Assembly (NCBI RefSeq): GCF_007992435.1
Contig: NZ_BKAG01000023.1
Span: forward strand, 1 to 64,000
From: Prosthecobacter gellanilyticus
GTDB lineage: Bacteria; Verrucomicrobiota; Verrucomicrobiia; Verrucomicrobiales; Verrucomicrobiaceae
DNA: 64,000 nt
Reading direction: 5' to 3'
Shown here: piece by piece, positions 38-26,360 of the stretch
How positions within the stretch are numbered: position 1 is the stretch's first letter
How the letters are laid out: each line of letters begins with the position of its first letter
Made by a program: the position numbers and the translations under genes
Notes under the pieces: generated by a model
Seen by the model: only the letters and a program-made list of their open reading frames with translations
Told to the model about the DNA's origin: nothing
Databases searched by the model: none

Positions 38-979
38 CTACAAAGGTGCGGGCTTGCTGCCGGTGGCGCTGAAGATGAGCGCGCGGTGCTCGGTGCAGAG
101 CTCGAGTCCGTATTCGAGGCCGAGCTCGAAGATGATTTTCTTCAAGTCCCGGAAGGTGGTGAAGGAGTCTGGATACACGTAGATGGTCAGGTAGCGATCC
201 TTGCCGAGGAGATGCGGCAGGAGCTCGCGCAGGCGGCGGGCATCTTTGGCGGGGTTCAGACCCTGGCCCTGCTGGACCATGGCGGTGAAGGTGCCGTCCG
301 CCGCCGTCGCCTGCTTCACGTAGGGGGAGGGGCTGCCGTCTGGATTGTAGAGCGGGAAGACCTGACCGTAGCGCAGGATGACCGGGGCCGGAGGCTTGTT
401 GACCTCACGCTCACGCGGGAAGCGCAGCTTCTCAACCTTCAGGTCGTTCACGCTTTCGAGCTCCAGCTGGAGATCTGCGAGCTCCTTTTCCAGCGCGGCG
501 TGGCGCTGGCGCGCGGCCTCGGTGTCCTTGTTCATGATGCCGAGTTTTCTTTCCAACTCCTGATCCTGCTCTCGCAGACGGGCGATCTCACTGCCGGAAT
601 CCCGCAATTTTTGTTCGGCCATCTTTCCTGCCAGCTCGTCCTGCCGCGCGCGCTCCTGGCGCTTCACCTCGGCGGTCTTTCTGAGCGCGAGCAGCTCTGT
701 GATCAAGGGGCGCGTGGATGGATCGTCCTCGCTCTGAAGCTGGGCGCGCAGCTTCTGCAGACCGTCCAGCTCCGCGCGTGCGTGCTCGAGACGCTTCTCT
801 TCCAGGATGCCGGCCTCGGGCTCGACCGGGCCGGTGCTTTTCTTGACATCGCCCTCGCCATCTTCCTGCATGGTGACGACCAGCAGGCAGGCGATGAGCA
901 CCAGGGTGCCCAGGAGGTCACACAGGGTATCCAGAAGGAGATCCATGTTATCGGAGGACAGCTGCTGGAACTTCCTCAT
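38..979 (-). CDS. TolR/MotB-like single-span coiled-coil protein, ion-channel partner
   Basis: 313 residues, last gene of the seven-gene minus-strand operon; its ATG overlaps the upstream stop by 4 bp (ATGA). One N-terminal membrane span lies at about residues 14-36, with acidic residues D13, D17 and D21 at its start, as in TolR/ExbD/MotB, where a membrane Asp relays protons. A long Lys/Glu/Arg-rich coiled coil follows (about 55-185), then a C-terminal globular part (about 190-313) ending in a YLTIYVYPDSFTTF-type strand and a LEYGLEL motif. That C-terminal part resembles the product of the gene just upstream, so the two look like diverged duplicates. Family knowledge plus the adjacent ExbB/MotA-type gene suggests it is the plug or stator partner of that channel. 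There is no classical OmpA peptidoglycan-binding motif that I can recognise. Confidence 0.75.
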   Translation of the reverse strand: MRKFQQLSSDNMDLLLDTLCDLLGTLVLIACLLVVTMQEDGEGDVKKSTGPVEPEAGILEEKRLEHARAELDGLQKLRAQLQSEDDPSTRPLITELLALRKTAEVKRQERARQDELAGKMAEQKLRDSGSEIARLREQDQELERKLGIMNKDTEAARQRHAALEKELADLQLELESVNDLKVEKLRFPREREVNKPPAPVILRYGQVFPLYNPDGSPSPYVKQATAADGTFTAMVQQGQGLNPAKDARRLRELLPHLLGKDRYLTIYVYPDSFTTFRDLKKIIFELGLEYGLELCTEHRALIFSATGSKPAPL

Positions 980-1830
980 GGCTTTTTGATGACAGGTGGA
1001 AGGTTGCTGAACTCGATGTCGGCGTCCTCAGGGACGACATCATAACCGATCTGAAAGCCCTCTGTGCGGGCGCGCTTGGTGAGCATCTCAAAGTGCGTCG
1101 TGCCGGAGGGTTTGAAGTAGAGCACGACGTAGTGCGTAGCCGGTGAGACCGCGCGGATGTATTTCACGAAGTCATTGATGGACCCTGAGGCTGCCGGCGC
1201 GCCATCTGAACGCTGCATGCGGATGAGGGAGCCCTGGACGAGCACGAGCACGGGCTCCTTGCCGCTGCCGTCTTTCTCAGGGATCAGTGAGATGACGTTC
1301 CTGCGGTTGTTCTGACGCTGCAGTGAACTCTGCGCGTCCACCAGCTTCTTCTCCATGTCCAGGATGTCCTTGTTGATGCCGGAGGAGAGTTTTTCGCCGT
1401 TGTGCATGGAGGCGCTCATTTTCTCCAGGCGTGAGAGCAGCTTGTTCTTTTCCGCGCGCAGCTCGCGGTCGCGGCCGGTCGCGTCCGCATCACGGTCCAG
1501 TCCTGGCAGAGGCTTCGCATCAAGCTCGGCGATGGTGCTGGTGAGCTGGCCGATCATGCGGCGCAGGGTGGCCTCGTCATCCGAGGGACGGCTTTGATAG
1601 TCCGCCACTTCGTTTTTGAGAGATTCGATGGTGGACAGCATCGATTTCAAATCACCATCGCGCTTCGGATTCGGTTGCGGTGAGGTGGCCTCTTTCGGAA
1701 TGATGTCCTTCACACACAGCGCCAGGAACAGCGTGAGCACGATGATGAAGCCCACGGTGCCCGTGATCACGGACTGGAAGCCGAAGAAGCTCACGCCTCC
1801 CGTTCCGTGGTTGCCGAATCGCTCTCTCAT
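976..1830 (-). CDS. TolR/MotB-like paralogue without a membrane Asp
   Basis: 284 residues. One span at about residues 18-41 (starts FGFQSVITGTVGF), then a coiled coil at about 55-185 and a C-terminal alpha/beta-like part with the strand HYVVLYFKPSGTTHF and the motif IGYDV. The same layout and C-terminal pattern occur in the next gene (38-979). Unlike that protein, no acidic residue falls inside the span; the first Asp (D42) comes after it. It starts 8 bp after the ExbB/MotA-type gene, and its stop overlaps the next start. Inference: it forms a mixed plug with the paralogue, perhaps as the non-conducting subunit. Membership of the TolR/MotB superfamily is argued from topology and context, not from a clear motif. 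Confidence 0.65.
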   Translation of the reverse strand: MRERFGNHGTGGVSFFGFQSVITGTVGFIIVLTLFLALCVKDIIPKEATSPQPNPKRDGDLKSMLSTIESLKNEVADYQSRPSDDEATLRRMIGQLTSTIAELDAKPLPGLDRDADATGRDRELRAEKNKLLSRLEKMSASMHNGEKLSSGINKDILDMEKKLVDAQSSLQRQNNRRNVISLIPEKDGSGKEPVLVLVQGSLIRMQRSDGAPAASGSINDFVKYIRAVSPATHYVVLYFKPSGTTHFEMLTKRARTEGFQIGYDVVPEDADIEFSNLPPVIKKP

Positions 1831-1838
1831 GAAACGTG

Positions 1839-2717
1839 TTAGTGGGCGGCGAGGCGCAGTTTGCCAGCCACGTTCTTATGGCAGATTTCGTTGCAGGCAT
1901 CGAGGAACTCCGACTCGCGTGTCTGCAGCCAGCTGATGATGAGCTGCAGGACGAGGGCGCAGAGGAGGGCCACAAGCGTGGTTTCAAAGGAGGTGGCGAG
2001 ACCGGCGGTGACGGACTCAAGAGATTTGCGCAGCGCCACCATGTCACCTCCGGCACGCAGCGTGGCACCGAAGGCGCCGATGGCCTGGCCGAGACCAAGC
2101 ACGGTGCCGATGAAGCCGAGCACCGGGATGGCCCAGAGGAAGCCCTGAGTGAGCGCGTAGCTGGAGGAGATCTGCGCCTCGTCATTCTCCGCCTGGATCT
2201 TCAGGATGGCGGCGACATCCGCCGTGTGGCCGATGTTGTGGAGATTGGCGAGCGCGAGGTCGATGCGGTTCAGCAGGATGAAGTGGTTCGGATTGTCCAC
2301 GATGCCGCTCATGCGCTCACGCAGAGCGCGGGCGGTGGCCGGAGTGAGCTCGAAGTCCGGCTGCTGAGGCATCAGTGGAAGCGCCAGGGCCTGCTGCTGG
2401 ACGGCGAGCTTCCGCCATTTGAAGAACATCATGGAGAGCGCCCAGAAGAAGAAAAACATGGTGGGGTAGGGGCAGGGGCCGCGCTTGGTGAACATGTCCA
2501 GCAGCCACTGCAGGTCCGCGGAAATGGTGACCGACAGGTAGAGCCCCGCGTAAAAGACCACCGTGGCCACCACGCCGATGATCATGGAGAGAAGTTTGTT
2601 AGGTGCGGTGAAGCGCCCTGGGGAAAAGCCGATCCGGCGCTCCGGGTCCTGGCGTGACCAGTTCAGGAGCAGCATGGGGGATGAGGCAAAGGGGTTGGCG
2701 GACGGCATTTCAGGCAT
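1839..2717 (-). CDS. MotA/TolQ/ExbB proton-channel family protein
   Basis: 292 residues with hydrophobic spans at about 42-63, 83-101, 189-217 and 238-264. The last two carry the family signature: IPVLGFIGTVLGLGQAIGAF near 197-216 and ATSFETTLVALLCALVLQ near 241-258, the paired helices that line the ion path in ExbB, TolQ and MotA. The cytoplasmic loop between spans 2 and 3 is about 85 residues. It lies 30 bp after the GYF gene and 8 bp before the first TolR/MotB-like gene, so channel and plug genes are in the usual order. By family knowledge the protein turns proton or sodium flow into mechanical work. No TonB, Tol-Pal or flagellar genes are nearby, so the load is probably the other operon products. 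Confidence 0.88.
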   Translation of the reverse strand: MPEMPSANPFASSPMLLLNWSRQDPERRIGFSPGRFTAPNKLLSMIIGVVATVVFYAGLYLSVTISADLQWLLDMFTKRGPCPYPTMFFFFWALSMMFFKWRKLAVQQQALALPLMPQQPDFELTPATARALRERMSGIVDNPNHFILLNRIDLALANLHNIGHTADVAAILKIQAENDEAQISSSYALTQGFLWAIPVLGFIGTVLGLGQAIGAFGATLRAGGDMVALRKSLESVTAGLATSFETTLVALLCALVLQLIISWLQTRESEFLDACNEICHKNVAGKLRLAAH

Positions 2718-2747
2718 GTTGCGGCGGAGGAAAAAGGGTGGCCCAGA

Positions 2748-3398
2748 CTAGGAGTCTCCGATGGGGAAGACACGATAAAAAAGCGCGGGGGCAAAAAGCG
2801 AGCTGAAGGCGGCCAGGGCGATCAGGGCATAACCAATGATCAGGGCACCGATGGCCAGGCCCCGGCCTTCCAGCGAAGGCTGACGCCGGATCTGCCGCAG
2901 CGCGAGGTGGCCCAGGATGATGCTGGGCAGCCAGCTCACCAGGTTCAGATAGGGGACGAAGCTGGCGCAGCTGATGACAAAGGCCACGACGGCGAGCCAG
3001 CAGGTGAGCGGTGTGTTTTCGGCCGGCAGGTCAGCGCTGAGCTCCACGCGGCCTGGGGTGGCGCCTTTGACGAAGACGGGCGGCGGCCTGCCGAAGAGGT
3101 TCGGCTTCTGCACCTGGATCTCGAAACCGAGCGTGCGCTTCTGCGCCAGGGGCACGAACTCGGCAGGCTTCTGCGCTTCCTTCTGGCGCAGGCTGGTGCC
3201 GAGCTCCGCCGCGCGGCGTGCCAGGTCCGCAGCATCCACTTCCTCCAGGTAGTCGCGCAGAGACATCCACTCACCCTCCACGCAGATGCGGTAGAGGGAG
3301 TGAATGGTTCCGGCCTCGAGCGCCTCGCGGATCTGTGCGAGAGACCACGGGCCGACTGCGCGTCCCCGCCATTGAAGCTGATGCTGGGTTTCGCTCAT
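2748..3398 (-). CDS. GYF-domain plus DUF4190-like membrane protein
   Basis: 216 residues. Residues about 8-52 look like a bacterial GYF_2 domain (VGPWSLAQIREALEAGTI), a small fold that usually binds proline-rich peptides. A linker at about 55-120 follows, then a hydrophobic C-terminal part with two or three spans at about 125-205 (CWLAVVAFVISCASF; ILGHLALRQIRRQPS; GRGLAIGALIIGYALIAL), the pattern of DUF4190. The start codon overlaps the stop of the 1000-residue gene by 4 bp. A second GYF-like segment occurs in the GTPase at the head of the operon. The neighbouring GAP1-type protein has proline/alanine-rich linkers that could be GYF ligands; that last point is inference. Confidence 0.75.
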   Translation of the reverse strand: MSETQHQLQWRGRAVGPWSLAQIREALEAGTIHSLYRICVEGEWMSLRDYLEEVDAADLARRAAELGTSLRQKEAQKPAEFVPLAQKRTLGFEIQVQKPNLFGRPPPVFVKGATPGRVELSADLPAENTPLTCWLAVVAFVISCASFVPYLNLVSWLPSIILGHLALRQIRRQPSLEGRGLAIGALIIGYALIALAAFSSLFAPALFYRVFPIGDS

Positions 3399-6397
3399 GG
3401 CTTCATGAAGGGGGCCTCGATGACTGCGGATGGAGCCTGGGCTGGAGCGGTGGCGGTGCTGGAGAGTGTGCTGTGGTAGGTGCTCAGGAGCTGCTCGCGG
3501 TCCAGGGGCAAATACAGCACCGGGCTGAGGGGCAGGGCCTCGGCTGGCGCTGTCTTGGTGGCGGCGGGAACGAGCACCGGACCGGCCTTCCCCAGCAGCC
3601 AGAACTCTTTCGCGCTGCGTGAGTTCGTATTCAGCGTGAGGGTGCGGTCCACCTCCACGTAACCGCCGAATCTCACGCCTCCGGCCACCACCTGGGAGAT
3701 CAGCACACGGCGTGCCTGCGCCTCTTTTTCATAGGTCCGGTCGTGACGTGACTGGAAGAAGGCCTCCAGGCTTGCACCCAGCGAGCCGCGAACTTTGGGG
3801 ATCATCCAGTCCTCGCCGCGCAGGGGATAGGCGCCTACCAAACGATGCAGCTCCATGAGGTCGGCGCGCAAGGTCGGCGCGAGGTGCATGCCCCAGGCGA
3901 ACGGGCGGTCCCGGGTGAGACGCTCCAGCTCGAGCATGACATAAGCCTTGGCCAGCGCGGGGGAGGTGGTGTCCGCCATCAAGCGGTCAAACACGGAGAG
4001 GATGTTGCGCTCGAAGCGCTCGCCATTCGCGTCCGTCATGCGGTCGATCTGCAGGTTCTGGATGAGCGTGCTCACGGCAGCGGGTTTGGAGGAGACAACA
4101 CTCTGGCCCTGCGCGCTGCCACCGCCGATCACGAGGCGCTTGTATTCACCACTCACGAAGGCGGCTCCCGTGTCCTGCGGATGAGCATCATAGACCTTGC
4201 CGTTCCAGCGGTGCTGCGTGTCACCCACGCGGCTTTCACTGAGCTGCCCGATGGACCAGACGCTGCGCCTGCCACGGCCGGTCGAGTGATCCTGCACGAT
4301 GTGTTCCCACACGTTATTGAAGCTGCGGTCATCCCGCAGGCTGAGCAGGACCTTCAGATCGTTCTCCTCAGGTGTGTCAGGGTGGAGCCGGGCTCCGGCC
4401 ACGTCTTCCACGCCTGCCTTCCAGGTGGCAAGATCACCGCCGGTGAGCAGGTTCGCCAGGAACTGCTCCTCGGTCGGCAGCGCGGTGTGCGTGCTGGCCG
4501 CAGGTGCTGCCTCGACAAAGCGGATGGACTGCCATTTGCCGAGTTCACGGCCGAAGTCTGCCAGCGTGGCGGAAGCCAGGGTGGCCTCACGGAGGCTGGC
4601 AAAGTTGCTGACCTCTGCCTTGAAGTCATCCACCCGCTGACGTGCGGACTTGAGCTGGGCCAGGAGGTCCGCAGGAAGCCGTGTAGTGGTCTCCGTGGCG
4701 GCCTGGGATTCCAGCTCGGCGATCTGGGTGTCCAGTGTCTGAACGGCTGTGGCGACCTCGGCCGAGGGGCGCTCATAGCTGAGTTCTTTCTTGGACATGG
4801 TGGCGATGGTTTCGAGCTTGCGGCGCGCATCCGTGCTGCGTGTCTCACCCAGATTCACGACCATCAGCTCAGCCTTCGTCTTCAGCGTGGTGAGTCTCTG
4901 GCTGGCGGTGACGGCGAGATCTCCGGGAAGCTGGCCGATGAGCTCACGTGCGGCTTCGAGACGCTTCAGCACCTCTGCGGGCTGGAGGCCGGAAAAGTTC
5001 TGCGCGGCAGCCTTTTCCAGTTCGGAGATGGTTTGATCGGCATGGGAGGCCACGCCCTGGGACTGCCCGACCCAGGCTTCCGTTTCCTCGATCTGGGTCT
5101 TGAGATAAGGCCAGTGCAGAAGCGTGGGATGATCCTGCTTCAGGCTGGTGGAGAGCTTGGCCGCAGGCCCGGCCAGCTGGCGCACACGGTAGCTGATCAG
5201 GTCCAGCGCATAGGCGCGGGCCTGCCAGCCATGCCATGCCAGGGCTCCGATGCCTAACAAGAAGGTGAGTAATGCGGCGGTGGAGAGCAGGGTGCGGTTC
5301 CGGCGGCCTTTCTGGGCGCGCTCCAGAGAGGTGCGGATGCCCTGGCCTGTCTGGCGCAGCTTGGTGAGAACATCATCAGAGACCGGCAGCGCATAGCTCT
5401 CCAGCTCACGCCAGCGGCGGATGAAGTTCTCATCCAGCTTCGAGGCTTCTCCGAGTCCAGGCTGTGTGCCGGTCATGAGGCGTGTGCCGGCCTCCTGGGC
5501 AAAGCTGACAAAGCTGTTCAGCGTGCGGTTGAAGGCGCGCTGGCGCTCGGCGGCGGCGCTTTCACGGCGCGCATAGGCGGCGGCGGTCTCCATCTCGGTC
5601 TTCTGGCCGGTGGTGAGCTCCAGTCCGTGGGCCTCGATGAGCTCCTGCAGTCTCTCGCAGGTTTCCTTGGTGGCCTGCCAGTCACTCGCCTGCCGATGCT
5701 GCTCTACCTCTTCGAGCAAGGCTGGCACCTTCTCCCCGGCCTGACGTTTGCGCAGGGCGCGGCGGATGCCTTCTGCCTGCGCGATCTCGGAAGAGACGGT
5801 GTGTTTCTCCGGCGGGAAGGTGGCGGTGATTTTCTCTGCCAGCGTGGCGATGCGTTCCTCATCATCCGTCTTCAAGGCGGAGCGCAGCAGTTCCAGCGTG
5901 TCCTGCCAGTTTTTGTTCTCCAGACGCTGCAGCTCGGAGCGCGCATTTTCGTCACCGGGATTGAGCCTGAGAATGGTGCGGATGATGCGCAGGGCCTTGT
6001 CATCCTCACGGGAAAGCACGGCGGCGCGGAAGTCCTTGTAAAGGGGATGGTTGGCCGTGACTCCCTGGGCATAAAGGCGGTCCAGGGCCTGCACTGTTTT
6101 GGAGTCCAGCTTCGGAGCGATGGGGAGCTGATGCGCCTGGCAGAAATCCATCCACGCCTTTTCGCTGCCAAAGCTGAGCACGGCGATGAGGTCCAGCAGG
6201 GGCGGTTCCTCCTCGGCAGCCTGGATGGCCTGATAGTCACTGCCTTTCTCCAGCATGGCAGAGATGCGGTGGAGGCGGGTGGAGGCCTCTGTGCAGAGAC
6301 GCGCATAGGCTCCGGCAGCATTTTCCACAGCGCTGGAGACGATGCCCGTCTGCAGGGTGGAACGCAGAATGTCGATGATGTCAGAGGGAAGCTTCAC
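3395..6397 (-). CDS. Large single-span protein of the GTPase/channel operon
   Basis: 1000 residues from a GTG start; the next usable ATG would remove conserved-looking sequence. The N-terminal 365 residues are almost entirely helical and charged, as in helical-repeat scaffolds. A single span lies at about 370-390 (LSTAALLTFLLGIGALAW) preceded by the basic run KGRRNR, so the N-terminus is probably cytoplasmic and the 600-residue C-terminal part periplasmic. The periplasmic part begins with more predicted coiled coil (about 400-640) and ends in a mixed, possibly beta-rich region. I do not recognise a family. It starts 50 bp after the GAP1-type gene and overlaps the GYF gene. The likely role is a scaffold spanning the inner membrane. 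A TssM-like role was considered, but no other type VI genes are present. Confidence 0.7.
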   Translation of the reverse strand: MKLPSDIIDILRSTLQTGIVSSAVENAAGAYARLCTEASTRLHRISAMLEKGSDYQAIQAAEEEPPLLDLIAVLSFGSEKAWMDFCQAHQLPIAPKLDSKTVQALDRLYAQGVTANHPLYKDFRAAVLSREDDKALRIIRTILRLNPGDENARSELQRLENKNWQDTLELLRSALKTDDEERIATLAEKITATFPPEKHTVSSEIAQAEGIRRALRKRQAGEKVPALLEEVEQHRQASDWQATKETCERLQELIEAHGLELTTGQKTEMETAAAYARRESAAAERQRAFNRTLNSFVSFAQEAGTRLMTGTQPGLGEASKLDENFIRRWRELESYALPVSDDVLTKLRQTGQGIRTSLERAQKGRRNRTLLSTAALLTFLLGIGALAWHGWQARAYALDLISYRVRQLAGPAAKLSTSLKQDHPTLLHWPYLKTQIEETEAWVGQSQGVASHADQTISELEKAAAQNFSGLQPAEVLKRLEAARELIGQLPGDLAVTASQRLTTLKTKAELMVVNLGETRSTDARRKLETIATMSKKELSYERPSAEVATAVQTLDTQIAELESQAATETTTRLPADLLAQLKSARQRVDDFKAEVSNFASLREATLASATLADFGRELGKWQSIRFVEAAPAASTHTALPTEEQFLANLLTGGDLATWKAGVEDVAGARLHPDTPEENDLKVLLSLRDDRSFNNVWEHIVQDHSTGRGRRSVWSIGQLSESRVGDTQHRWNGKVYDAHPQDTGAAFVSGEYKRLVIGGGSAQGQSVVSSKPAAVSTLIQNLQIDRMTDANGERFERNILSVFDRLMADTTSPALAKAYVMLELERLTRDRPFAWGMHLAPTLRADLMELHRLVGAYPLRGEDWMIPKVRGSLGASLEAFFQSRHDRTYEKEAQARRVLISQVVAGGVRFGGYVEVDRTLTLNTNSRSAKEFWLLGKAGPVLVPAATKTAPAEALPLSPVLYLPLDREQLLSTYHSTLSSTATAPAQAPSAVIEAPFMKP

Positions 6398-6447
6398 GGC
6401 TGGTAGGGGGAAGAAAAGGGGGCTGGACCATCATGGCGGGGCTGGTG

Positions 6448-9075
6448 CTAGGGGCCGGAGAGGATCTTGATCTCACAGAGGCGGCGCCTGCCCACGGAGA
6501 GGGAGTAGATGCCCGCAGGCACACCCAGGAATGAGGTGTCCTCAGGCGCGGCGGCCTTGCGGTCTTCCTCCAGCTGGAGGAGGCGCTGCTGGCGCGCGGT
6601 GAGGGAGTCATCGAGACGGCGGAGAGAGTCTTCCTTCTGCTGTTTGGCGAGGTTGCCTGAGTCGATCATGGCGCGGCGCTGATCATCAATGCGGATGCCC
6701 TGGCGGAGGGACTCGATCTCCCTGTCCAGCTCAACCAACTTTGTGTTTACGGCGCCGTTTGGCGCGGTCGCGGCCTCGGATTCGACGGCCACGTTCCGGC
6801 CGTCATCCCTCAGCTGGAAGCGGCGGGTGGGATCCTCCACATGCTGGATGCGCAGGGGCGCGCCGCCCGCGATGATGATGCGCTGCAGCCAGCGGGAGGA
6901 GGCCTCATCCAGCAAGGTGCGGGTGCCTTCACGGCGGTCACGGAAGGTGAGCTCGGGTGAGGAAGGCCAGGCATCCACCAGTGGTGAGGCCATGGGGAAG
7001 GCGATGACCTCGAAGAGCACCCTGACACCGCGGCCGTCCCTGGCGATGAAGCGCGTGGCGGTGGTTTCATCCGGCAGCTTGCTGAGGCGGAACTGCCGGA
7101 ACTCCAGGGTGCTGGAGTCATTGAAGCTCTTCCGGAAGACTCCAGGAGCTCCCAGCTGCTTCCAGCGAACGAGCTCTGACTCGGCGCTGCCTGCCGGGCC
7201 GATGTGAATCTGCATGTCTGGCAGGATGGGCAGCGTGGGCAGGGCATCCAGCGCCTTGGCCAGAGGCATGGAAGGGGTCTCGATCACGATGTAGCGGATG
7301 TGGGTGGAGGCCAGGCCATCCGCAGGCTGCGCGGGTTCCTCTGGTTTCGCCGGCGCGGGTTCGGCGGCGGGCATGACAGGCGCGGGTGCAGGGGCCTTGG
7401 CAGCCGCCAGCGCGGCATCCAGCTGCTTCTGCGTGAGCTGGCGGAACCACACGGGTGCATCTGCGGACTTGGTGGCACGTTCGAGAAGGTCGCGGTCACT
7501 TTGGACCAGGGCGGCGGGCAGCTTGGAAACGGCGCGCCAATGTTCGACCCAGGCGGCGTTCTCACCCGTGCGGGTGAAGTCGATCAGCTCCAGCCAGTCA
7601 TGGGCCTCACCTTCAGGCGCAGCGGGATGGGCCAGGGTCCTCAGCACCTGCTCATGGATTTCCCGACGCAGCACGTCAGGCTGCTCCGGTCTCATGGCGA
7701 AGGCGGGGGTGAGCTTTTGCCAGTGCTGGTCCAGTGCGACGGATGCAGCCTGAGCCGCATGGAGGATCTCAAGCGGCTGCCTGCCTGACCAGGCGCTGTC
7801 ACGCACGGCGCGCTGGAGCTCACGCTGCCAGGAGGTGAAATTCTGGAGCATGTCCATGAACTCGTCCTGGGTGTTTTCAGGGCGGGGAATGTCCAGCATG
7901 CGCAGCGGCTCGCGGATGGCGATGGTGAGCTGCTGGAGAGCCTTGGTATGGGAATCCAGCAAGGCGGCACTGCCCTCGGCCTTCAGCCAGTTCCGGGTGA
8001 CGGAGAGGTTGAGCCTGTGCTTCTGCCAAAGCTCATCCACGGATCGGGCGACGCTGACGGCGTCTCCCCCCTGGGCGCCGGAAGGCGATGAGCTCAGCGA
8101 GGGCAGCTGCGGCACCAGAATAAAGGCGGCGATGCCTGCCGCGGCGATGAGCACTGCCGTGACCACGAACGGCCACGGCGAGCGTGATGGACGTGCTTTT
8201 GGTTCGGCAAAGATGGGCGGCAGGGGACTGGCGGGAGCCGCGGTGGCGGACGCAGGGGCGGCGGCTGATGCCATGACTGGCCGCAAGGTGCTCGCGGCGG
8301 AAAAAGCGGTGCTGGCCCTGGCCTCGGAGAGCTTCGGCGCGGGCAGGCTCTGCGGGTCCGTGAGATCAAAGGTGGTGCGCACTGCCCCCTCCGCCTGCTG
8401 CCTCAGAGGCGAGGCCGAGCTCAAGGCCACCCAGCGCAGTTCCGCGAGGTCATCCGTGGGTTCGAGATGGGTGGTGAAGGTGACGAGCCAGGCGGCGGTG
8501 CCGCCGATGGTGGCGAGGGATTCCTGGTAGAGGTCCAGCGCGCCATCCTCACCGGGAAGCAGCAGGCAGCAGCGCTGGGCCTGCGCGGGGAGGAGAGCGT
8601 TGGAAGCATCCTTGGTTAGGTTTTGCCAGGCTCCGGTGGCAGGGCTGCGGCGGAAGCTGGTGAGGGGGACCTCCTCATCGGGCTCGAAAAAGCGCGGTGC
8701 GTCACTCCAGGCGGTGCGCCAGCGCATCTGGCGCAGGATGTCTACCGGTGTGAGGCCTGCCTCTGCGGCGGCGCGGGCCTCACGCGCATCGGCGATGAGG
8801 TGATGCGCCAGATGATTCGTCCGCCCGGTGTAGTCAGAGCCCGCATCCCGGATGCAGCTGAAGACATGATAAGAAGCTGCGCCGGCATTGATGATGCGAT
8901 GACTCAGCACCACACGGCGGGCGCTCAGGCCGGAAAGCCGCGCAAACTGCGAGACACGCTCCACCGCCGCCATCAGCAGGCCGCTCACCGCGCGATGCCG
9001 CGCCACCGTGCCGAAGCCGGTGCGGCCAGCCTCGATCAAACGAGGCGCGCTGGTGTAGATGAGCTGGGAGGCCAT
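6448..9075 (-). CDS. Membrane-anchored GAP1-N2-type GTPase-associated protein
   Basis: 875 residues. The N-terminal region (about 1-230) matches the pattern I associate with GAP1-N2, the type 2 N-terminal domain of GTPase-associated protein 1: YTSAPRLIEAGRTGFGTVAR near 7-26, then VVLSHRIINAG and IRDAGSDYTGRTNHLAHHL near 75-93. A Pro/Ala/Ser-rich linker (about 245-300) leads to one membrane span at about 301-321. The remaining 550 residues are probably periplasmic: mostly helical, then a beta-rich stretch from about 600 and a short coiled coil near 790-850. GAP1 proteins are described as partners of TRAFAC-type GTPases in predicted conflict systems; the GTPase gene is directly upstream. The ATG follows a C/T-rich leader without a Shine-Dalgarno box and sits at the edge of the 10-bp repeat array. 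Confidence 0.78.
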   Translation of the reverse strand: MASQLIYTSAPRLIEAGRTGFGTVARHRAVSGLLMAAVERVSQFARLSGLSARRVVLSHRIINAGAASYHVFSCIRDAGSDYTGRTNHLAHHLIADAREARAAAEAGLTPVDILRQMRWRTAWSDAPRFFEPDEEVPLTSFRRSPATGAWQNLTKDASNALLPAQAQRCCLLLPGEDGALDLYQESLATIGGTAAWLVTFTTHLEPTDDLAELRWVALSSASPLRQQAEGAVRTTFDLTDPQSLPAPKLSEARASTAFSAASTLRPVMASAAAPASATAAPASPLPPIFAEPKARPSRSPWPFVVTAVLIAAAGIAAFILVPQLPSLSSSPSGAQGGDAVSVARSVDELWQKHRLNLSVTRNWLKAEGSAALLDSHTKALQQLTIAIREPLRMLDIPRPENTQDEFMDMLQNFTSWQRELQRAVRDSAWSGRQPLEILHAAQAASVALDQHWQKLTPAFAMRPEQPDVLRREIHEQVLRTLAHPAAPEGEAHDWLELIDFTRTGENAAWVEHWRAVSKLPAALVQSDRDLLERATKSADAPVWFRQLTQKQLDAALAAAKAPAPAPVMPAAEPAPAKPEEPAQPADGLASTHIRYIVIETPSMPLAKALDALPTLPILPDMQIHIGPAGSAESELVRWKQLGAPGVFRKSFNDSSTLEFRQFRLSKLPDETTATRFIARDGRGVRVLFEVIAFPMASPLVDAWPSSPELTFRDRREGTRTLLDEASSRWLQRIIIAGGAPLRIQHVEDPTRRFQLRDDGRNVAVESEAATAPNGAVNTKLVELDREIESLRQGIRIDDQRRAMIDSGNLAKQQKEDSLRRLDDSLTARQQRLLQLEEDRKAAAPEDTSFLGVPAGIYSLSVGRRRLCEIKILSGP

Positions 9076-9081
9076 GGGGAA

Positions 9082-9224
9082 GTTAACGGTGGTTTACAGT
9101 GGTTGACGATTGTTTACGGTTGTTGGCAGAGGCTGAGAAAGGTCGTGGTGGTGATTTTGGTTAGGCTTCAGGGGCTTGGAAAACTACTGTCAACCATCGT
9201 CAACAACCGTAAACCATTGTAAAC
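9082..9224. repeat. Inverted pair of 10-bp tandem arrays
   Basis: Five 10-bp units beginning GTT run on the plus strand from 9082 to 9131 (GTTAACGGTG, GTTTACAGTG, GTTGACGATT, GTTTACGGTT, GTTGGCAGAG). Five matching units run on the minus strand from 9224 down to 9175 (GTTTACAATG, GTTTACGGTT, GTTGACGATG, GTTGACAGTA, GTTTTCCAAG). The consensus is GTTKACRRTK, with the innermost unit of each arm degenerate. The arms can pair into a long imperfect hairpin with a 43-bp loop. The element fills the gap between the GTPase stop and the GAP1-type start, so it may act in the mRNA as a processing or translation signal, or it may be a passenger repeat. Confidence 0.9.
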
Positions 9225-9228
9225 TTCT

Positions 9229-11016
9229 CTACTTCTTGGTCACCACCTCAGGCGCGAGCTGGGAGAGGACCCAGAGGGAGGGGACCTCGACCTGCTTCGG
9301 CTGGATGGAGCTGGGATCTGGGCCGATGCGGACGTGGCCTTCACTGTCCGTGAACTGAACGGGGGAGCAGCCGAGCGGACTCACCGCGAAGTAGGCGACG
9401 TTTGATGAAATGGCCTCGGCATTCGCGACGATGGCCGGGCAGAGGTCTAACAAAAGATCACGCAGACGGTTGGAGTTCTGCTGGACGTTTTCAAGCAGCA
9501 GGGCGCCTTTTTCCACGGAGGGCAGGAGGGGGGCTTCACCGAGCAGGTGCTCCCAGGTGTCGCTCTTGCCGATCATGACCGCGAAGGGAGTGTCGATGGT
9601 CTGGCGCGAGTCGAGGCCTAACACGTTTTTGATGCGCACTTCCGTCTCGGCAAGGATGACGTCCTGCTGGTCGAGCCGGCGGCTCTGGATCTGCGGGTCA
9701 CGGATGCCGCGCAAGCGCTGGCGGAACTCGGTGTTATGCAGCGGATCAAAGAGGAAGAAGATGCCCGATGCCACGGCGATGTGCTGCGCGCCGGGGGAGT
9801 CGGCGCTGTTGCGCGTGGGCTCGAAGTGCTCACCGGCATTGTCATAGAAGACGAGGGCGAAATCCGTGTCGTGAGCGCGGCTGCGGGTCAGCTTGAAGAC
9901 GAAGGGTTTCGGCAAACGAACTTTGCGTCCCTGGCGCGGCAGTGTCTCATAGAGCATGCCTTCCAGTTCGGTCTTGGCCAGGAAGGCATCTTCCGGCGTG
10001 GAGGCGGAGAAGAGCTGCGTCCGCATCTGGGTGAGGATGACATTTTCGGAAGGGTCCGCATCCCGGAAGGTCACGCCGAAGTTCTGGTAAAGGCTGGTCT
10101 GCAGGGTGCGGGTGAGCACGCTGAGGTAGTAGCTTTTGCCCGAGGAAGGTGCGCCGACGATGGAGAAGATGTGGTGCGGCGTGTCCATGAAACCGGGAGG
10201 CAGCTTCCGGCGGCAGTGAGGGCAGGCGAGATCGGGGGCGGAGAGGCCCATGGCATCCAGAGCCTGTCCTCGGTCATTGAAACGGGTGGCATGGAAGCGC
10301 TGCATCGCATCCTCTCCCAACAGCGGATCTCCGCGCAGGGTGGCATGCACGGCGATGTTCATGGCGTCTCCACGGTCGAATTTGAACCAGCAGACAGGGC
10401 AGGTGAACTCACCATACTCCATGTTCACTGGCTCGGAGTGCACGGCCTGCACGAGTTCCTCCTGCTGGACGGGGGCGCTGTTTGCCGGGAAGACGTGGCG
10501 GATGTCCTTGACGAAGAAACCCACGTCATGGAGGCCGCCAGGCATGGCGATGTTGTCCTCCGCCTGCTCATCGGACTGGCGGCGGATGTGCTGGCCCATC
10601 TGGTCATGATCAAAGGGGCCATACCACTGGCGCGCCTGAGAATCGTAAAAATGCCAGAAGGGGTCGATCCCGAGATCACTCCACTCCGAGGCATCTGCAA
10701 GCGCCTTGAAGGCCAGGGCCTCACCGCAGGAGAGGAGGGTGTGCTCCTCCCCGAGGTGAAGGGTGAACTGGGTTCCGGGAGCACCATCCACCAGGGAGGT
10801 GCCTGCCGAGTCGGCATGGAGGGTGATCTCAAAGATGTCTCCACGCTGCTGCACGGTGCCGAGCACGGGAGGGCAGGCCGGGGCGTGGGTGCGGAAGTCT
10901 GCGGCGGCACTGGCCCCGAGAATGAAAGGCGTGGTGGCGACGACCGTCCGCTCCCCCGTGGCGCAGTTAAGAATCCCAACACGGGGCGTGAGCGAGCGTG
11001 GACGAAGGCTGGTCAT
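9229..11016 (-). CDS. Zinc-ribbon GTPase with FHA-like and GYF-like N-terminus (DO-GTPase2-like)
   Basis: 595 residues, first gene of the operon. Order of parts: an FHA-like beta-sandwich pattern (about 22-105), a GYF-like segment (about 121-145, WYGPFDHDQM), a split zinc ribbon (CPVC 206-209 and CPHC 265-268), then a P-loop NTPase. The Walker A motif is GAPSSGKS (288-295). The likely switch motif is DNAGE (392-396, DxxG type) after a hydrophobic strand, and GKSD (483-486) stands where NKxD specifies guanine. This fits a TRAFAC-type GTPase; the closest group I can name is the double-GTPase-2 (DO-GTPase2) set known to pair with GAP1 proteins. The FHA and GYF calls are by pattern only. It is probably cytosolic. 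Its leader is pyrimidine-rich, and 153 bp with an inverted repeat array separate it from the GAP1 gene. Confidence 0.75.
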   Translation of the reverse strand: MTSLRPRSLTPRVGILNCATGERTVVATTPFILGASAAADFRTHAPACPPVLGTVQQRGDIFEITLHADSAGTSLVDGAPGTQFTLHLGEEHTLLSCGEALAFKALADASEWSDLGIDPFWHFYDSQARQWYGPFDHDQMGQHIRRQSDEQAEDNIAMPGGLHDVGFFVKDIRHVFPANSAPVQQEELVQAVHSEPVNMEYGEFTCPVCWFKFDRGDAMNIAVHATLRGDPLLGEDAMQRFHATRFNDRGQALDAMGLSAPDLACPHCRRKLPPGFMDTPHHIFSIVGAPSSGKSYYLSVLTRTLQTSLYQNFGVTFRDADPSENVILTQMRTQLFSASTPEDAFLAKTELEGMLYETLPRQGRKVRLPKPFVFKLTRSRAHDTDFALVFYDNAGEHFEPTRNSADSPGAQHIAVASGIFFLFDPLHNTEFRQRLRGIRDPQIQSRRLDQQDVILAETEVRIKNVLGLDSRQTIDTPFAVMIGKSDTWEHLLGEAPLLPSVEKGALLLENVQQNSNRLRDLLLDLCPAIVANAEAISSNVAYFAVSPLGCSPVQFTDSEGHVRIGPDPSSIQPKQVEVPSLWVLSQLAPEVVTKK

Positions 11017-22552: not shown

Positions 22553-22673
22553 GAGGTGGATCTGGGGCTAAGATAGAGAATCTACGAGGGCGCCCCGATC
22601 CCTTGACTTCTCACCCCTATGAAAGTCCTGATTTGTTCACAGCGTAGGTGTGGCACCCCCTTTTTTCGAAATC

Positions 22674-25600
22674 ATGCCCACCCGCTTCGTTTTTGCTTCG
22701 ATCACCGGCTTTTGCCTCGCCTCTTCCGCCAGCCTCTTCGCGCAGGACGCGGAAAAGATCACCTACGAGGACCACATCAAGCCGCTGCTGGAGAACAAGT
22801 GCTTCTCCTGCCACAATCCTGATAAAAAGAAGGGCGATCTGGACCTGACCAGCTTTGGCGCGCTCATGACCGGTGGCGGTGGTGGAGCCATTGTGGACGC
22901 GGGGAATCCAGATGGCAGCCGTCTGTGGACGACCTGCGCGAAGAAGGAAGAACCCTTTATGCCGCCGGAAGGCGCGCCTCTGAATGCCAAGGAACTCGAG
23001 ATCCTGGCCAAGTGGGTGACCGGTGGTGTGCTGGAGACGAAGTCCAGCGTGGCCAAGAAATCCAGCAAGCCGAAGGTGGATATGGCCGTGGCCGTTACCA
23101 GTGGCCGCCCTGAGGGACCGATCGCCAAGCCGGAGCACGTGCTTTTGGAGCCGGTGATCGTCACTCCGCGCACCACGGCCGTCACGGCCATGGCTGCGAG
23201 TCCCTGGACCTCCCTGGTGGCCATCGCCGCACCGAAGCAGATCCTGCTTTATGACACCGACACCCGCCAGCTCGCGGGTATTTTCCCCTACACGGAAGGT
23301 TATGCACGCACCCTGCAGTTCAGCCGCAATGGCAGCCTGTTGGTGATGGGCGGCGGTCGGGGGGGCAAGTTTGGCCACGCGGTGGTTTGGGACGTGAAGA
23401 CCGGCAAGCGCATGATCGAGGTCGGCAAGGAGTTTGACCAGGCCATGAGCGCGGACATCAGCCCGGACCACAAAATGGTCGTCGTGGGCTGCACCTCGAA
23501 AAAGGTGAAGTGCTATGACAGCGCCACGGGCGAGGAGCTCTACACCATCGCCAAGCACACGGAGTGGATCCTGGGCACGAAATTCAGCCCGGACGGCGTG
23601 CTGCTGGCCACCTCTGACCGCAACGGCAACGTCATGGTTTGGGAAGCTGCGAACGGCGGTGAGTTCTACATCCTCGGCCAGCACAAGGGACCCTGCACGG
23701 ATCTCGCCTGGCGTGCAGACTCGAACCTTCTGGCCTCCTGCTCCAAGGACGGCACCATCTCTGTCTGGGAGATGAACGAGGGCAAGCAGATCAAGAACTG
23801 GGCCGCGCATGGCGGTGGTGTGCAGTCCGTGAGCTTTACGCCGGATGGCAGCATCGTTTCCTCCGGTGACGACGGCCTGGTGCGTGTCTGGGACGTCAAT
23901 GGCAACAAGAAATCCGAATCGGTGAACCAGGGCGATATCGTCGCCAAAGTGGTCGCTCTCGCTGACTCGAAGTCCTGCGTGACCTCCAACTGGCGTGGTG
24001 AGGTGAAGGTGCTGACGCTTCAGGACAAGATGCCTGAGATCGGTCAACTGAGCAGCAACCCGCCGCTTATCGCCCAGCGCATTGTCGAGGCCGAGAAGCG
24101 CGCTACTGAACTCGTGGCAAAGCTGCCTTCGCTTCAGGAAGCGGTGAAGAAGGCTGAGGAAGATGCGAAGAATCGTCAGGCCAACCTGCCCAAGGTTCAG
24201 GCCGAGGTGGCGGAGAATGATCGTCGTTCCAAAGCCTATCCAGCGGAGATCGCAGCGGCTGAAAAGGCCCTCGGTGAGGCTAAGGCTGCTCTGACCAAAG
24301 CGCAGGCAGATCAAAAGGCCCGTGGAGAAGCCATCAAGGCTCACGCGGACAAGGCCGCCAAGGTGGCCCAACTGGAAAAAGATCTCGCGGCAGCGAATGC
24401 CGAAGCTCCGAAAGTCGCCGCAGCTGACAAGGCCGTGGCTGATGCCAATGGTGCCCTGGAAGGCGCGAAGAAGGAACTCGCCGCGAAGGCTGGCGATGCG
24501 GCTCTCACAGCGAAGGTGAAGGATCTGGAAGGCAAAGTTGGTTCGGCAAAAGCTGAGCAGGAGAAGCTGGCGGCGAGCAAGACCAAGATCGACCAGGCCA
24601 CCGCTGCGGTGACCAAGGCCAAGGCTGAGCTCGGTGCTGCCCCAGGCCCTGTGGCCGAAGTCGACAAGGTGATCGCGGACACCAACGCCAAGATCAAAGA
24701 ACTCACGGACACCATCGCTGCGAAGAAGGCAGAGCTGCCGAAGCTGCCAGCGCTGGTCAAAGCCGGTCCAGATCGCATCAAGGGCGCGGAGTCTGATGTG
24801 GCCACGGGCAACTCAAACCTCGCTGCGGCGCAGATGAATGCCAAGCTGGCTGCGGATGAGATCAATGTGCTGCAGAAGCTGCCCACGGTGCTCAAGGCTG
24901 CGCAGTTCAATGTCGGCGTGCTCGCGGAGAAAGAGACGCTGGCAAAGCTGGAAGGCAGCTTCAACGACTACACCGCCGCGAAGAAAGAGAACGAAGAGGC
25001 CAAAGTTTCCAATGCTTCGAAGATCGAGTCTTCGAAGAAGGCTATCGCTGAAGCGGTGAACCTGCTTCCACAGAATGAAGCCACGCTGGCCAAGCTCAAG
25101 GCTGAGCTCGGCGGTCTGGAAGAAGCGGTGAAGCCCACCAGGACCACGGACGGCGCTGCCTCTGCCAAGCTGGAAGAAGCGAAGAAGACTCTCACGACAC
25201 GTGAGGCCGAACTCGCTGCACTGGTGAAGGCTCGTGACGAAGGCACCGCCGCAGCGAAGAAGAGCGCGGATGACATCGCCAAGGCCATCGAAGGCTTGAA
25301 GAAGAAGCTGGGTGAAGTCGCCACGAAGCTGAAGAACCCTGACGAGCAGGTGAAGAGCAAGCAGGCCGATGTGACCCAGCGTGAAGGCAAGCTCGCTGAG
25401 GCGAAGAAGAGCGTCGCTGATCTTACCGCGGCACTTCCTGGTCAGGAAAAAGCGGCCAAAGACGCTGAGGCAGCACTCGCCAAAGCTGCGGCTGATTTGC
25501 AGGCCGCCGAGAAGGCTCTCAATGAAACGCAACGCGCGAACGGCGAGGCTGAACGTGGAGTGAAGGTTGCTCGTCAGGCTGTGACGAGTGCTGAGAAAGC

Positions 25601-26360
25601 TGTGAACGATGCCAAGGCCAAGAATGCCGTCACTCCTGAACTGGAGAAGGCTCTCGCCGAGGCCCAGGGGAAGCTGGCCGCTGCTGAGAAAGCTGGCGCT
25701 GATGCTACCGCGAAGGTCACCGCAGCGAAGACTGCCAGCGACAGCCTTCGCGAGGCCCGCAATGCCGCTGAGAAGGCACAGGGTGCTGCACGTCAGGTTG
25801 CTGGCAAGAGCAAGAACGACCTGAACAACGCCAGCAACAGCGCCAAGCAGCTTGAGACCGCGCTCGCCAAATCCAAGGGCGAGCTGGACGCTGCGAACAA
25901 GGTCGCGGCTCCTCTGCGTGGTCAGCATGACAGCATCTCCAAAGAGATCGCCGCTCAGGACAAGGCCCGCGCGGACAAGCTCGCCGTGCCTGCGGCTCTT
26001 GAAGCTGATTTTGCCGCCAAGTCGAAGCCTGTGAATGAGCAGATCGCCGCCATGAAGGCCGCTCTTCCCGAAGTGGAGAAGGCTTTCGCCGAGGCTCGCG
26101 CCAAGCTGGAAGGTGAGATCAAGATCGTCGATGCCAAGAAGGCGGAAGTCGCCAAGGCCACAGAAGAGCTCGAAGGCACGAAAGCCAAGAAGGCCGGTGC
26201 TGAAGCCGCTATTGCCGCTGCTGAGAAGGACACTCCTGTGCGTGACAAGAACCTCGCTGAGATCAATGCGGAGCTGACGAAGCTTACGCCTCAGCTTGAC
26301 CCTGCCCGCGCCAAAGTGAAGGATCTCGAAGCGAAGTATCTGACCATGCTGCCGAAGTAA
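22674..26360 (+). CDS. Exported cytochrome c / WD40 protein with very long coiled coil
   Basis: 1228 residues from the ATG at 22674 (MPTRFVFASITGF), which gives a clean signal peptide ending LFAQ. Residues about 28-110 are a planctomycete-type cytochrome c domain with one haem site CFSCH (C43, C46, H47) and the usual MPPEGAPL segment. About 140-435 form WD40-like blades (FSRNGSLLVMGGG, DISPDHKMVVVGC, KFSPDGVLLATSD, SFTPDGSIVSSGDDGLVRVWD). From about 455 to 1225 the sequence is Ala/Lys/Glu-rich heptad coiled coil with little else. Cytochrome plus WD40 is a known combination in this phylum; the 770-residue coil is the odd part. Probably periplasmic. It stands alone, with no DUF1549/1553 or DUF1501 gene next to it. 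Confidence 0.88.
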   Translation: MPTRFVFASITGFCLASSASLFAQDAEKITYEDHIKPLLENKCFSCHNPDKKKGDLDLTSFGALMTGGGGGAIVDAGNPDGSRLWTTCAKKEEPFMPPEGAPLNAKELEILAKWVTGGVLETKSSVAKKSSKPKVDMAVAVTSGRPEGPIAKPEHVLLEPVIVTPRTTAVTAMAASPWTSLVAIAAPKQILLYDTDTRQLAGIFPYTEGYARTLQFSRNGSLLVMGGGRGGKFGHAVVWDVKTGKRMIEVGKEFDQAMSADISPDHKMVVVGCTSKKVKCYDSATGEELYTIAKHTEWILGTKFSPDGVLLATSDRNGNVMVWEAANGGEFYILGQHKGPCTDLAWRADSNLLASCSKDGTISVWEMNEGKQIKNWAAHGGGVQSVSFTPDGSIVSSGDDGLVRVWDVNGNKKSESVNQGDIVAKVVALADSKSCVTSNWRGEVKVLTLQDKMPEIGQLSSNPPLIAQRIVEAEKRATELVAKLPSLQEAVKKAEEDAKNRQANLPKVQAEVAENDRRSKAYPAEIAAAEKALGEAKAALTKAQADQKARGEAIKAHADKAAKVAQLEKDLAAANAEAPKVAAADKAVADANGALEGAKKELAAKAGDAALTAKVKDLEGKVGSAKAEQEKLAASKTKIDQATAAVTKAKAELGAAPGPVAEVDKVIADTNAKIKELTDTIAAKKAELPKLPALVKAGPDRIKGAESDVATGNSNLAAAQMNAKLAADEINVLQKLPTVLKAAQFNVGVLAEKETLAKLEGSFNDYTAAKKENEEAKVSNASKIESSKKAIAEAVNLLPQNEATLAKLKAELGGLEEAVKPTRTTDGAASAKLEEAKKTLTTREAELAALVKARDEGTAAAKKSADDIAKAIEGLKKKLGEVATKLKNPDEQVKSKQADVTQREGKLAEAKKSVADLTAALPGQEKAAKDAEAALAKAAADLQAAEKALNETQRANGEAERGVKVARQAVTSAEKAVNDAKAKNAVTPELEKALAEAQGKLAAAEKAGADATAKVTAAKTASDSLREARNAAEKAQGAARQVAGKSKNDLNNASNSAKQLETALAKSKGELDAANKVAAPLRGQHDSISKEIAAQDKARADKLAVPAALEADFAAKSKPVNEQIAAMKAALPEVEKAFAEARAKLEGEIKIVDAKKAEVAKATEELEGTKAKKAGAEAAIAAAEKDTPVRDKNLAEINAELTKLTPQLDPARAKVKDLEAKYLTMLPK

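Follow-up and report, generated by a model that had tools for sequence, protein, structure and literature searches.

GAP1-N2 proteins and DO-GTPases have been predicted by genome comparison to form systems with roles in biological conflict, for which the accessible text of the describing paper gives neither an experimental test nor a power source (Kaur et al. 2020, eLife 9:e52696, PMC7159879). According to that text, the GAP1-N2 protein is encoded downstream of a zinc-ribbon DO-GTPase and the systems have membrane-attached parts, while planctomycete GAP1-N2 loci come with GYF proteins fused to trypsin or to a transmembrane (TM)-rich region. A DO-GTPase of gammaproteobacterial psp operons is predicted, in the accessible text of another paper, to act in membrane stress (PMC11237479). 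Here, we describe a seven-gene operon of Prosthecobacter gellanilyticus located at positions 38-11016 of a 64,000-nucleotide window (NCBI RefSeq assembly GCF_007992435.1, contig NZ_BKAG01000023.1, positions 1 to 64,000, forward strand). The operon joins a GAP1-N2/DO-GTPase pair to a MotA-family channel and two TolR-like proteins, and its seven genes are a recurrent set, not a chance neighbourhood. We propose that they encode one GTPase-switched machine of the inner membrane and periplasm driven by ion-motive force, a reading to which we assign a probability of about 0.5.

An open reading frame check found the seven genes with the coordinates and spacings reported in a first-pass annotation of the window, namely two overlaps of 4 bp each and gaps of 8, 30, 50 and 153 bp. 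In transcription order, gene 1 (9229-11016, on the minus strand like all operon features below) encodes a 595-residue DO-GTPase2-type GTPase, gene 2 (6448-9075) the 875-residue GAP1-N2 protein, gene 3 (3395-6397, GTG start) a 1000-residue bitopic helical protein termed K1000, gene 4 (2748-3398) a 216-residue GYF-like and DUF4190 protein, gene 5 (1839-2717) a 292-residue MotA/TolQ/ExbB channel protein, and genes 6 (976-1830) and 7 (38-979) two proteins of TolR topology, TolR1 with 284 and TolR2 with 313 residues. The left flank beyond gene 7 is missing because the window starts at base 1 of its contig (C23; C, G, L and f numbers are our handles for contigs, genomes, loci and families). In five intact loci of the genus (L063, L064, L071, L073 and L081) the second TolR-like gene is the end of the set. 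Pfam families over their cut-offs were GAP1-N2, MotA_ExbB and DUF4190, with a match under cut-off for the GTPase and nothing over cut-off for the other three proteins; NCBIfam gave nothing over cut-off for any of the seven.

The match of gene 2 to GAP1-N2 has an E-value of 1.6e-19 (70.8 bits, cut-off 24), and that of gene 1 to DO-GTPase2 one of 1.3e-4 (22.1 bits, under the 27-bit cut-off). The GTPase displays the motifs CPVC206, CPHC265, GAPSSGKS288, YDNAGE391 and GKSD483. Two CxxC zinc-ribbon knuckles lie at residues 206-268 (10213-10401) and the P-loop GAPSSGKS at residues 288-295 (10132-10155). Across 31 aligned sequences C206, C209, C265, C268, G288, G293, K294, S295, D392, G395 and E396 are invariant. 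The GTPase gene stands directly upstream of the GAP1 gene, and both the zinc ribbon and the Walker B glutamate of YDNAGE are as in the published systems. These features (GAP1-N2, zinc ribbon and gene order) place the set with the GAP1-N2/DO-GTPase systems, and the suggestion in the first-pass annotation of a GAP1/GTPase pair of the predicted conflict-system kind thus holds. A GYF protein fused to a TM-rich region is a further likeness to the systems of Kaur et al., in so far as their accessible text describes them; in contrast, their fibronectin type-III repeat protein is not matched in the operon, and the operon GTPase carries an FHA-like region. No FN3 family was found at E <= 1 in the seven proteins, where a divergent copy could be missed.

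The FHA-like region of the GTPase covers residues 21-107 (10696-10956). Its profile matches to PDB chains are weak but consistent (E 0.002-0.3, best E 0.0021), and most of the matching chains we take to be FHA-domain proteins (GarA, Rv1827, Ki-67, EmbR, Rv1747 and others). This part may not be universal, because in several distant relatives the best-scoring stretch begins only at about residue 190-210. A GYF-like motif was spotted by eye in the GTPase, in which hydropathy, our method for calling membrane spans throughout, gave zero spans.

What sets the operon apart is the motor. In the main text of Kaur et al. (PMC7159879; figures and supplements outside the scope) there are no occurrences of MotA, TolR, ExbB, TolQ, 'proton channel', longin, DENN or TagF. 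The accessible texts of a survey of MotAB homologues (PMC12505986) and of PMC10341847 show no occurrence of GTPase. Coupling of a MotA/TolR motor to a GAP1/DO-GTPase pair was not found in the open-access literature searched (subscription papers and supplements outside the scope). Judged by these sources, the GAP1-N2/DO-GTPase kind is already in print and its coupling to a MotA/TolR motor is the new part.

The conservation of the set was determined in several samples. A GAP1 search among close relatives provided long stretches for 18 of 21 places, leaving out G019 (a 3.6-kb contig), a weak second place in G001 and the window itself. The close-relative sample comprised 20 loci (L063-L082), 19 from the same genus and one (L080) from another family, with two loci from one genome (G006). 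The full seven-gene order is shared by 14 of the 20, some with a longer GYF protein and L073 with an extra gene, while 16 of the 20 combine GTPase and GAP1 with a complete MotA/TolR1/TolR2 triad. The loci without it are either cut by contig ends (L072, L078) or lack the triad (L068, L080). A phylum-wide search yielded 80 places in 72 genomes, with that of the window among them, and 42 places were taken further. In the resulting sample of 40 loci (L083-L122), 35 had a recognisable GTPase as well as a GAP1, and 18 of these carry the complete triad; the 17 misses include at least one cut-short locus (L112, 7 kb). The 18 triad-bearing loci come from eight families (f7, f26, f30, f31, f42, f43, f50 and f67). 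The triad is kept despite rearrangement, being divergent from the GTPase gene in L071 and L079, upstream in L087, split in L118 and convergent in L148. Among the best 80 of 397 loci from a contig scan, which partly repeat loci of the other samples, we counted 22 complete triads and eight more with the start of a triad at the stretch end. By name, 78 of these 80 matches are Verrucomicrobiota groups, one is a 'bacterium' and one a Polynucleobacter, which we take for a naming slip; the closest named ones are metagenome-assembled genomes (MAGs) of Verrucomicrobiaceae and Prosthecobacter. The phylum of the relatives was taken as Verrucomicrobiota from these group names.

At the level of whole genomes, the system channel (>370 bits) was found in 16 of 19 GAP1-bearing genomes and in none of the 37 others among 56 relatives. 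The three GAP1 genomes without it are G010, G019 (68% complete) and G055, and G028 holds a 266-bit channel relative and no GAP1. Fisher's exact test gives 2e-11, or 4e-10 counting G028, values that are too small because the genomes are related. Within the genus the presence of GAP1 is patchy (18 of 35 genomes). The doubt expressed at first reading, that the neighbourhood might not be conserved beyond close relatives or that GAP1-N2 and channel genes might co-occur by chance, is answered by a set that recurs across the phylum.

We used trees to follow the descent of the set. RpoB was queried in 29 of the 35 genus genomes (the six least complete were left out) and found in 25, on whose tree presence requires 4 changes compared with 8.3 after shuffling; the GTPase tree is broadly like the RpoB tree. 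This points to mostly vertical descent with losses. For the motor, 39 motor-bearing and 29 motorless loci were picked from 140. On the GTPase tree (69 loci) the motor label changes 9 times compared with 22.4 times after shuffling, with motor-bearing loci on both deep sides. For the channel tree, 21 other MotA loci were offered and 13 entered it, the rest matching too weakly, with two pairs being the same gene; the system channels group together against these 13 (3 changes compared with 11.7 shuffled). GTPase and channel distances correlate with r 0.88 over 39 loci. Most simply, core and motor would be old partners and the motor would have been lost repeatedly, repeated motor gain being a possible alternative history. 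The motorless core of L173 adjoins an extracytoplasmic function (ECF) sigma factor, a gene resembling phosphotransferase system (PTS) enzyme I, an aminotransferase and lpxI. Other Opitutae loci, too, have homologues of these genes next to the core. The Opitutia loci L167, L168, L171, L175 and L178 do carry the channel. A Prosthecobacter MAG (L152:18080-19399) and L068 lack the motor triad and have a PQQ/BamB-like beta-propeller gene after the GYF gene.

The channel protein matches MotA_ExbB with an E-value of 3.8e-8 (33.6 bits, cut-off 22.9). T205, T246 and T247 are invariant in 24 of 24 aligned sequences and correspond, as we presume, to the threonines that line the ion path in ExbB/TolQ. There is no long C-terminal tail, the last span occupying residues 246-264 of 292. 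The TolR1 family has the motif FQDIIT with the aspartate in 23 of 24 sequences, and the TolR2 family the motif LLLDTMCNTFGG with the aspartate in 22 of 23, L104 having glycine; the TolR2 of the window keeps Asp17 (bases 929-931). The family hence has a pair of dissimilar plug-type proteins that both conserve an aspartate, and in the genome of the window one of the two aspartates has been lost. We call them TolR-like because of one N-terminal span, the conserved aspartate at the span start and adjacency to the channel gene. To this extent the earlier label 'TolR/MotB-like' stands, on topology, residue and place; its family side does not, as no ExbD, TolR or OmpA family is matched. OmpA or MotB families match 0 of 24 TolR1 and 0 of 23 TolR2 members at E <= 0.01. 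Among solved structures, the profile matches of the two proteins that we recognise are coiled coils (best 60 of 156 and of 268).

Further MotA-family genes were observed outside the set. A second one (about 200 bits to the system profile, frame of about 490 residues) is present in 34 of the 35 genus genomes, in two only partially. It lies at C79:3001-3813 with L210:56-2552 in the window's own genome and at L211:9828-13791 in G017, and in both genomes two TolR-like genes adjoin it with no GAP1 there. At L214:8917-13469 (G271), a MotA-like gene, a 496-residue protein that by eye is actin/Hsp70-like and two TolR-like genes (motif SLSFLDxICCGFGA) are found a few kb from genes resembling, by eye, ftsA and ftsZ. 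At L212:8077-12377 (G028), a divergent MotA/TolR1/TolR2 triad follows a 603-residue protein weakly matching the K1000 profile (31 bits); at the aspartate position of the family, the TolR1 of this triad has alanine, and G028 has no GAP1-N2 hit.

K1000 has no Pfam family over cut-off. Its AlphaFold2 model (mean predicted local distance difference test score (pLDDT) 87.2, predicted template modelling score (pTM) 0.50) is good locally with uncertain overall packing, and consists of a helical solenoid (residues 1-371), a span (369-387), more helices to about residue 690 and an alpha/beta part (690-980). Fold searches returned generic helical repeats only and hardly covered the alpha/beta part. The 216-residue protein matches DUF4190 over cut-off (E 1.8e-12) and GYF_2 below it (0.084), and has two hydrophobic spans.

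The GAP1 protein is arranged as an N-terminal module, one span (residues 303-321, 8113-8169), a helical part, a beta-domain and a coiled coil. Its head would lie inside and its coiled coil outside. The AlphaFold2 model (mean pLDDT 85.7, pTM 0.38) is again good locally and uncertain in overall packing. Residues 1-144 (8644-9075) adopt a putative longin-like fold in the model, with the order strand-strand-helix-strand-strand-strand-helix-helix, which we take to be the longin topology; VIA matches (Z 5.0-8.2) and Foldseek agree with this. A second alpha/beta part (residues 145-260, 8296-8643) aligns with DENN modules and TagF. VIA matches starting at residue 1 are in the majority longin, DENN or TagF structures, with few PAS domains or others. 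They include an archaeal longin (Z 8.2), GATOR1/SEA and Lst4 (7.0-8.2), DENND1A (7.4), DENND1B (7.3), the FLCN-FNIP2 complex (7.3), DENND10 (7.0) and TagF (7.7, 215 residues at 4.8 A). Those to DENND1A, DENND1B, DENND10 and TagF cover residues 1 to 260 or 1 to 284 (214-227 residues, root-mean-square deviation 4.8-5.4). Foldseek against PDB ranked TagF first (9t0n, E 1.5e-3, probability 0.98). The top VIA match overall, BBSome (Z 9.3), concerns the coiled coil at 769-848 and not the head. That the GAP1 head resembles TagF and the GTPase regulators of the longin/DENN kind is a lead from a predicted model, not a result. GAP1-TolA matches (E 0.005) were weak and set aside as compositional. TagF_N matched nothing in the 56 relatives, but the controls were silent too, so absence is not established.

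Taken together, we picture the operon product as follows. A MotA-like ring would surround a TolR1/TolR2 pair, and proton flow would be converted into movement of, or pull on, periplasmic parts. GAP1 and K1000 would be the force-bearing, envelope-reaching parts that carry this motion to the periplasm. The FHA/GYF/zinc-ribbon GTPase would set the on or off state and time the assembly or engagement of the complex. Its docking site or regulator would be the GAP1 head, and the GTPase itself would be read by FHA and GYF contacts. What is observed are the encoded parts, their phylum-wide association, the fact that GTPase and channel diverge in step, and the conserved polar residues of channel and plugs. 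Possible outputs are adhesion to or movement on a surface, maintenance of the envelope, secretion and conflict.

Several points weigh against this proposal. Force transmission and GTPase control are what we infer, and the correlation of GTPase and channel distances can arise from shared vertical descent alone. The TolR1 of the window itself has Ser20 in place of the conserved aspartate (bases 1771-1773), the sole case in 24, and neither the 24 TolR1 nor the 23 TolR2 members match an ExbD/TolR family at E <= 0.01. The channel of L212 falls, with weak support, inside the system channels despite the missing GAP1-N2 hit of its genome. Further, 29 genomes without a linked triad (G438 in this set appears to be G010 again) hold, within the limits of the assemblies, no system-type channel >225 bits elsewhere, and the motor is therefore not needed for everything the core does. 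In case of the GAP1 head, the fold matches have Z 5-8, a range flagged by VIA for common arrangements, Foldseek against PDB gave none at E <= 0.001, and a search with a profile built from 25 heads retrieved no TagF, longin or DENN chain by sequence, its only PDB match up to E 10 being a prolyl-tRNA synthetase (E 1.3).

The best surviving alternative is a conflict system of the type predicted by Kaur et al., anti-phage or inter-bacterial, in which GTPase and GAP1 would sense attack via the periplasmic parts and the channel would serve as effector or activator, as in Zorya. The GAP1-N2 and DO-GTPase hits themselves speak for it, together with the conflict predictions and the GYF-trypsin and TM-rich fusions in the accessible text of Kaur et al. 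(PMC7159879). GAP1 is moreover the fastest-diverging of the large proteins (31% identity to L063, compared with 61% for the GTPase and 62% for MotA), presence in the genus is patchy, and ZorA is also a MotA relative. Against it stand the mostly vertical descent seen in the RpoB and GTPase trees and the fact that Pfam and PADLOC profiles revealed neither a nuclease nor any other toxic effector among the seven proteins. A defence-island setting was rejected as well: the flanking genes include sulfatases, esterases, PSCyt/PSD1 and other ordinary genes, and in 82 flank open reading frames only three PADLOC profiles matched, one or two times each at E <= 1e-10 (two PD-T4-6, which we take to be a kinase, and one TPR). 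These frames stem from 19 loci chosen among the best 80 of the 397 contig-scan loci and were called greedily, so that antisense frames can be picked; 21 of 103 candidates were dropped, 12 from the duplicate loci L131, L139 and L144 and nine more. Phage or plasmid carriage was likewise rejected, as the GTPase found no relative in viral contigs (130 pattern matches), no match in the phage collection and one weak match in plasmids (Rhodococcus, 24.6% over 54%), and the channel had three partial plasmid matches below 60% identity. We consider the conflict system rather unlikely. In view of the mostly vertical descent, the plain flanks and the lack of relatives in the searched phage and viral collections, we put an envelope or surface task ahead of anti-phage defence by about two to one. 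Directly beside the seven-gene set of L150, a GYF_2 domain fused to a trypsin-like protease is encoded (8413-9918). This is the association noted in planctomycetes in the accessible text of Kaur et al., and it also counts for a conflict role.

Zorya consists of ZorA and ZorB plus ZorC and ZorD or ZorE. The operon resembles it in pairing, among other components, a channel of the MotA family with a partner that has one span, a likeness already drawn in the first-pass annotation, and differs in having two plug-like proteins instead of one, no OmpA-like plug protein and no long ZorA tail. PADLOC matches to ZorA were weak (best 2.1e-5, to profiles of 461-1063 positions compared with the 292-residue channel), and ZorC, ZorD or ZorE had no match in the seven proteins at E <= 1. 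Membership in Zorya was accordingly rejected on anatomy, the tail, the OmpA-like domain and the effectors all lacking.

Alternatively, the GTPase/GAP1/K1000/GYF core could be a regulatory platform and the triad a separate Tol-like energising unit, the two sharing only regulation or location. Cores without a triad in many loci speak for this, as does the GAP1-free MotA/TolR/TolR triad of G017 and of the genome from which the window comes. We judge it improbable, as the linkage outlasts inversions and reorderings, the channel follows GAP1 across genomes (16 of 19 compared with 0 of 37) and the system channels form a subfamily different from the unlinked triads. A chance neighbourhood of unrelated housekeeping genes is practically negligible: a nearby MotA gene alone is not very rare, with 11 MotA_ExbB matches in the 7.65-Mb host genome, but this rate predicts one in about 3% of 20-kb stretches, whereas 16 of 20 and 18 of 35 loci have it with both TolR-like partners, and the genome co-occurrence counts and the channel tree and distance data contradict it as well.

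Elsewhere in the window, an open frame of 2583 residues occupies 28109-35860 on the minus strand. AT skew reaches 0.311 at 24001-26000, the top of 32 stretches profiled, inside a 1236-residue plus-strand frame (22650-26360).

The GTPase-switched machine that we favour would give GAP1/DO-GTPase systems, through their recurrent motor partner, a direct handle in ion dependence, plug aspartate mutants and envelope phenotypes. Likewise, should the head of GAP1 prove to be a longin/DENN module, bacteria would have, in a tractable operon, a counterpart of a central component of GTPase control in eukaryotes, and proposals on its prokaryotic origin would become testable. One such proposal, in the accessible text of Zhang et al. 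2012 (PMC3521125), derives longin from prokaryotic GTPase-activating proteins (GAPs) of MglA-like GTPases. Compared with the eukaryotic longin/DENN regulators (DENND1, FLCN-FNIP2, GATOR1, C9orf72-SMCR8), the GAP1 head is alike in fold by weak matches and different in showing no sequence similarity, with guanine nucleotide exchange factor (GEF) or GAP activity being putative. TagF resembles the longin domain (PMC3325213) and represses type VI secretion by binding the FHA protein Fha (PMC5995506), as the accessible texts have it. The longin lead fits both findings: Foldseek ranks TagF, which has an FHA protein as its partner, first for GAP1, and the operon GTPase has an FHA-like region. A difference is that GAP1 has no sequence match to TagF.

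The closest working analogue of the proposed machine is the gliding machine of Myxococcus xanthus, which needs the Ras homologue MglA. GltJ is reported to combine a zinc ribbon and GYF domain with MglA contact. AglR, a MotA/TolQ homologue, and the TolR homologues AglQ and AglS form the proton channel of this machine, according to the accessible texts (PMC4488436, PMC13104615). The operon may share this make-up of one MotA and two TolR proteins, here by topology and aspartate instead of family match. Further likenesses are a Ras-like GTPase in control, large proteins with periplasmic regions and a GTPase regulator, which in Myxococcus is of the roadblock type, related to longin. In contrast, the GTPase of the operon is of DO-GTPase2 type and not MglA, and in place of the roadblock GAP MglB there is GAP1-N2 as part of a membrane protein. 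As a tentative and still doubtful synthesis, GAP1-N2 may be a bacterial longin-DENN regulator, with the fold by which eukaryotes control Rab, Rag and Arf GTPases, that connects across the membrane to a proton motor whose two plugs are unlike. A GTPase with its own regulator would then gate ion-powered envelope work in an arrangement that is ancient in Verrucomicrobiota and shares no descent with MglA/AglRQS or Zorya. The likeness of the proposed machine to MglA-AglRQS-Glt is one of logic, not of descent.

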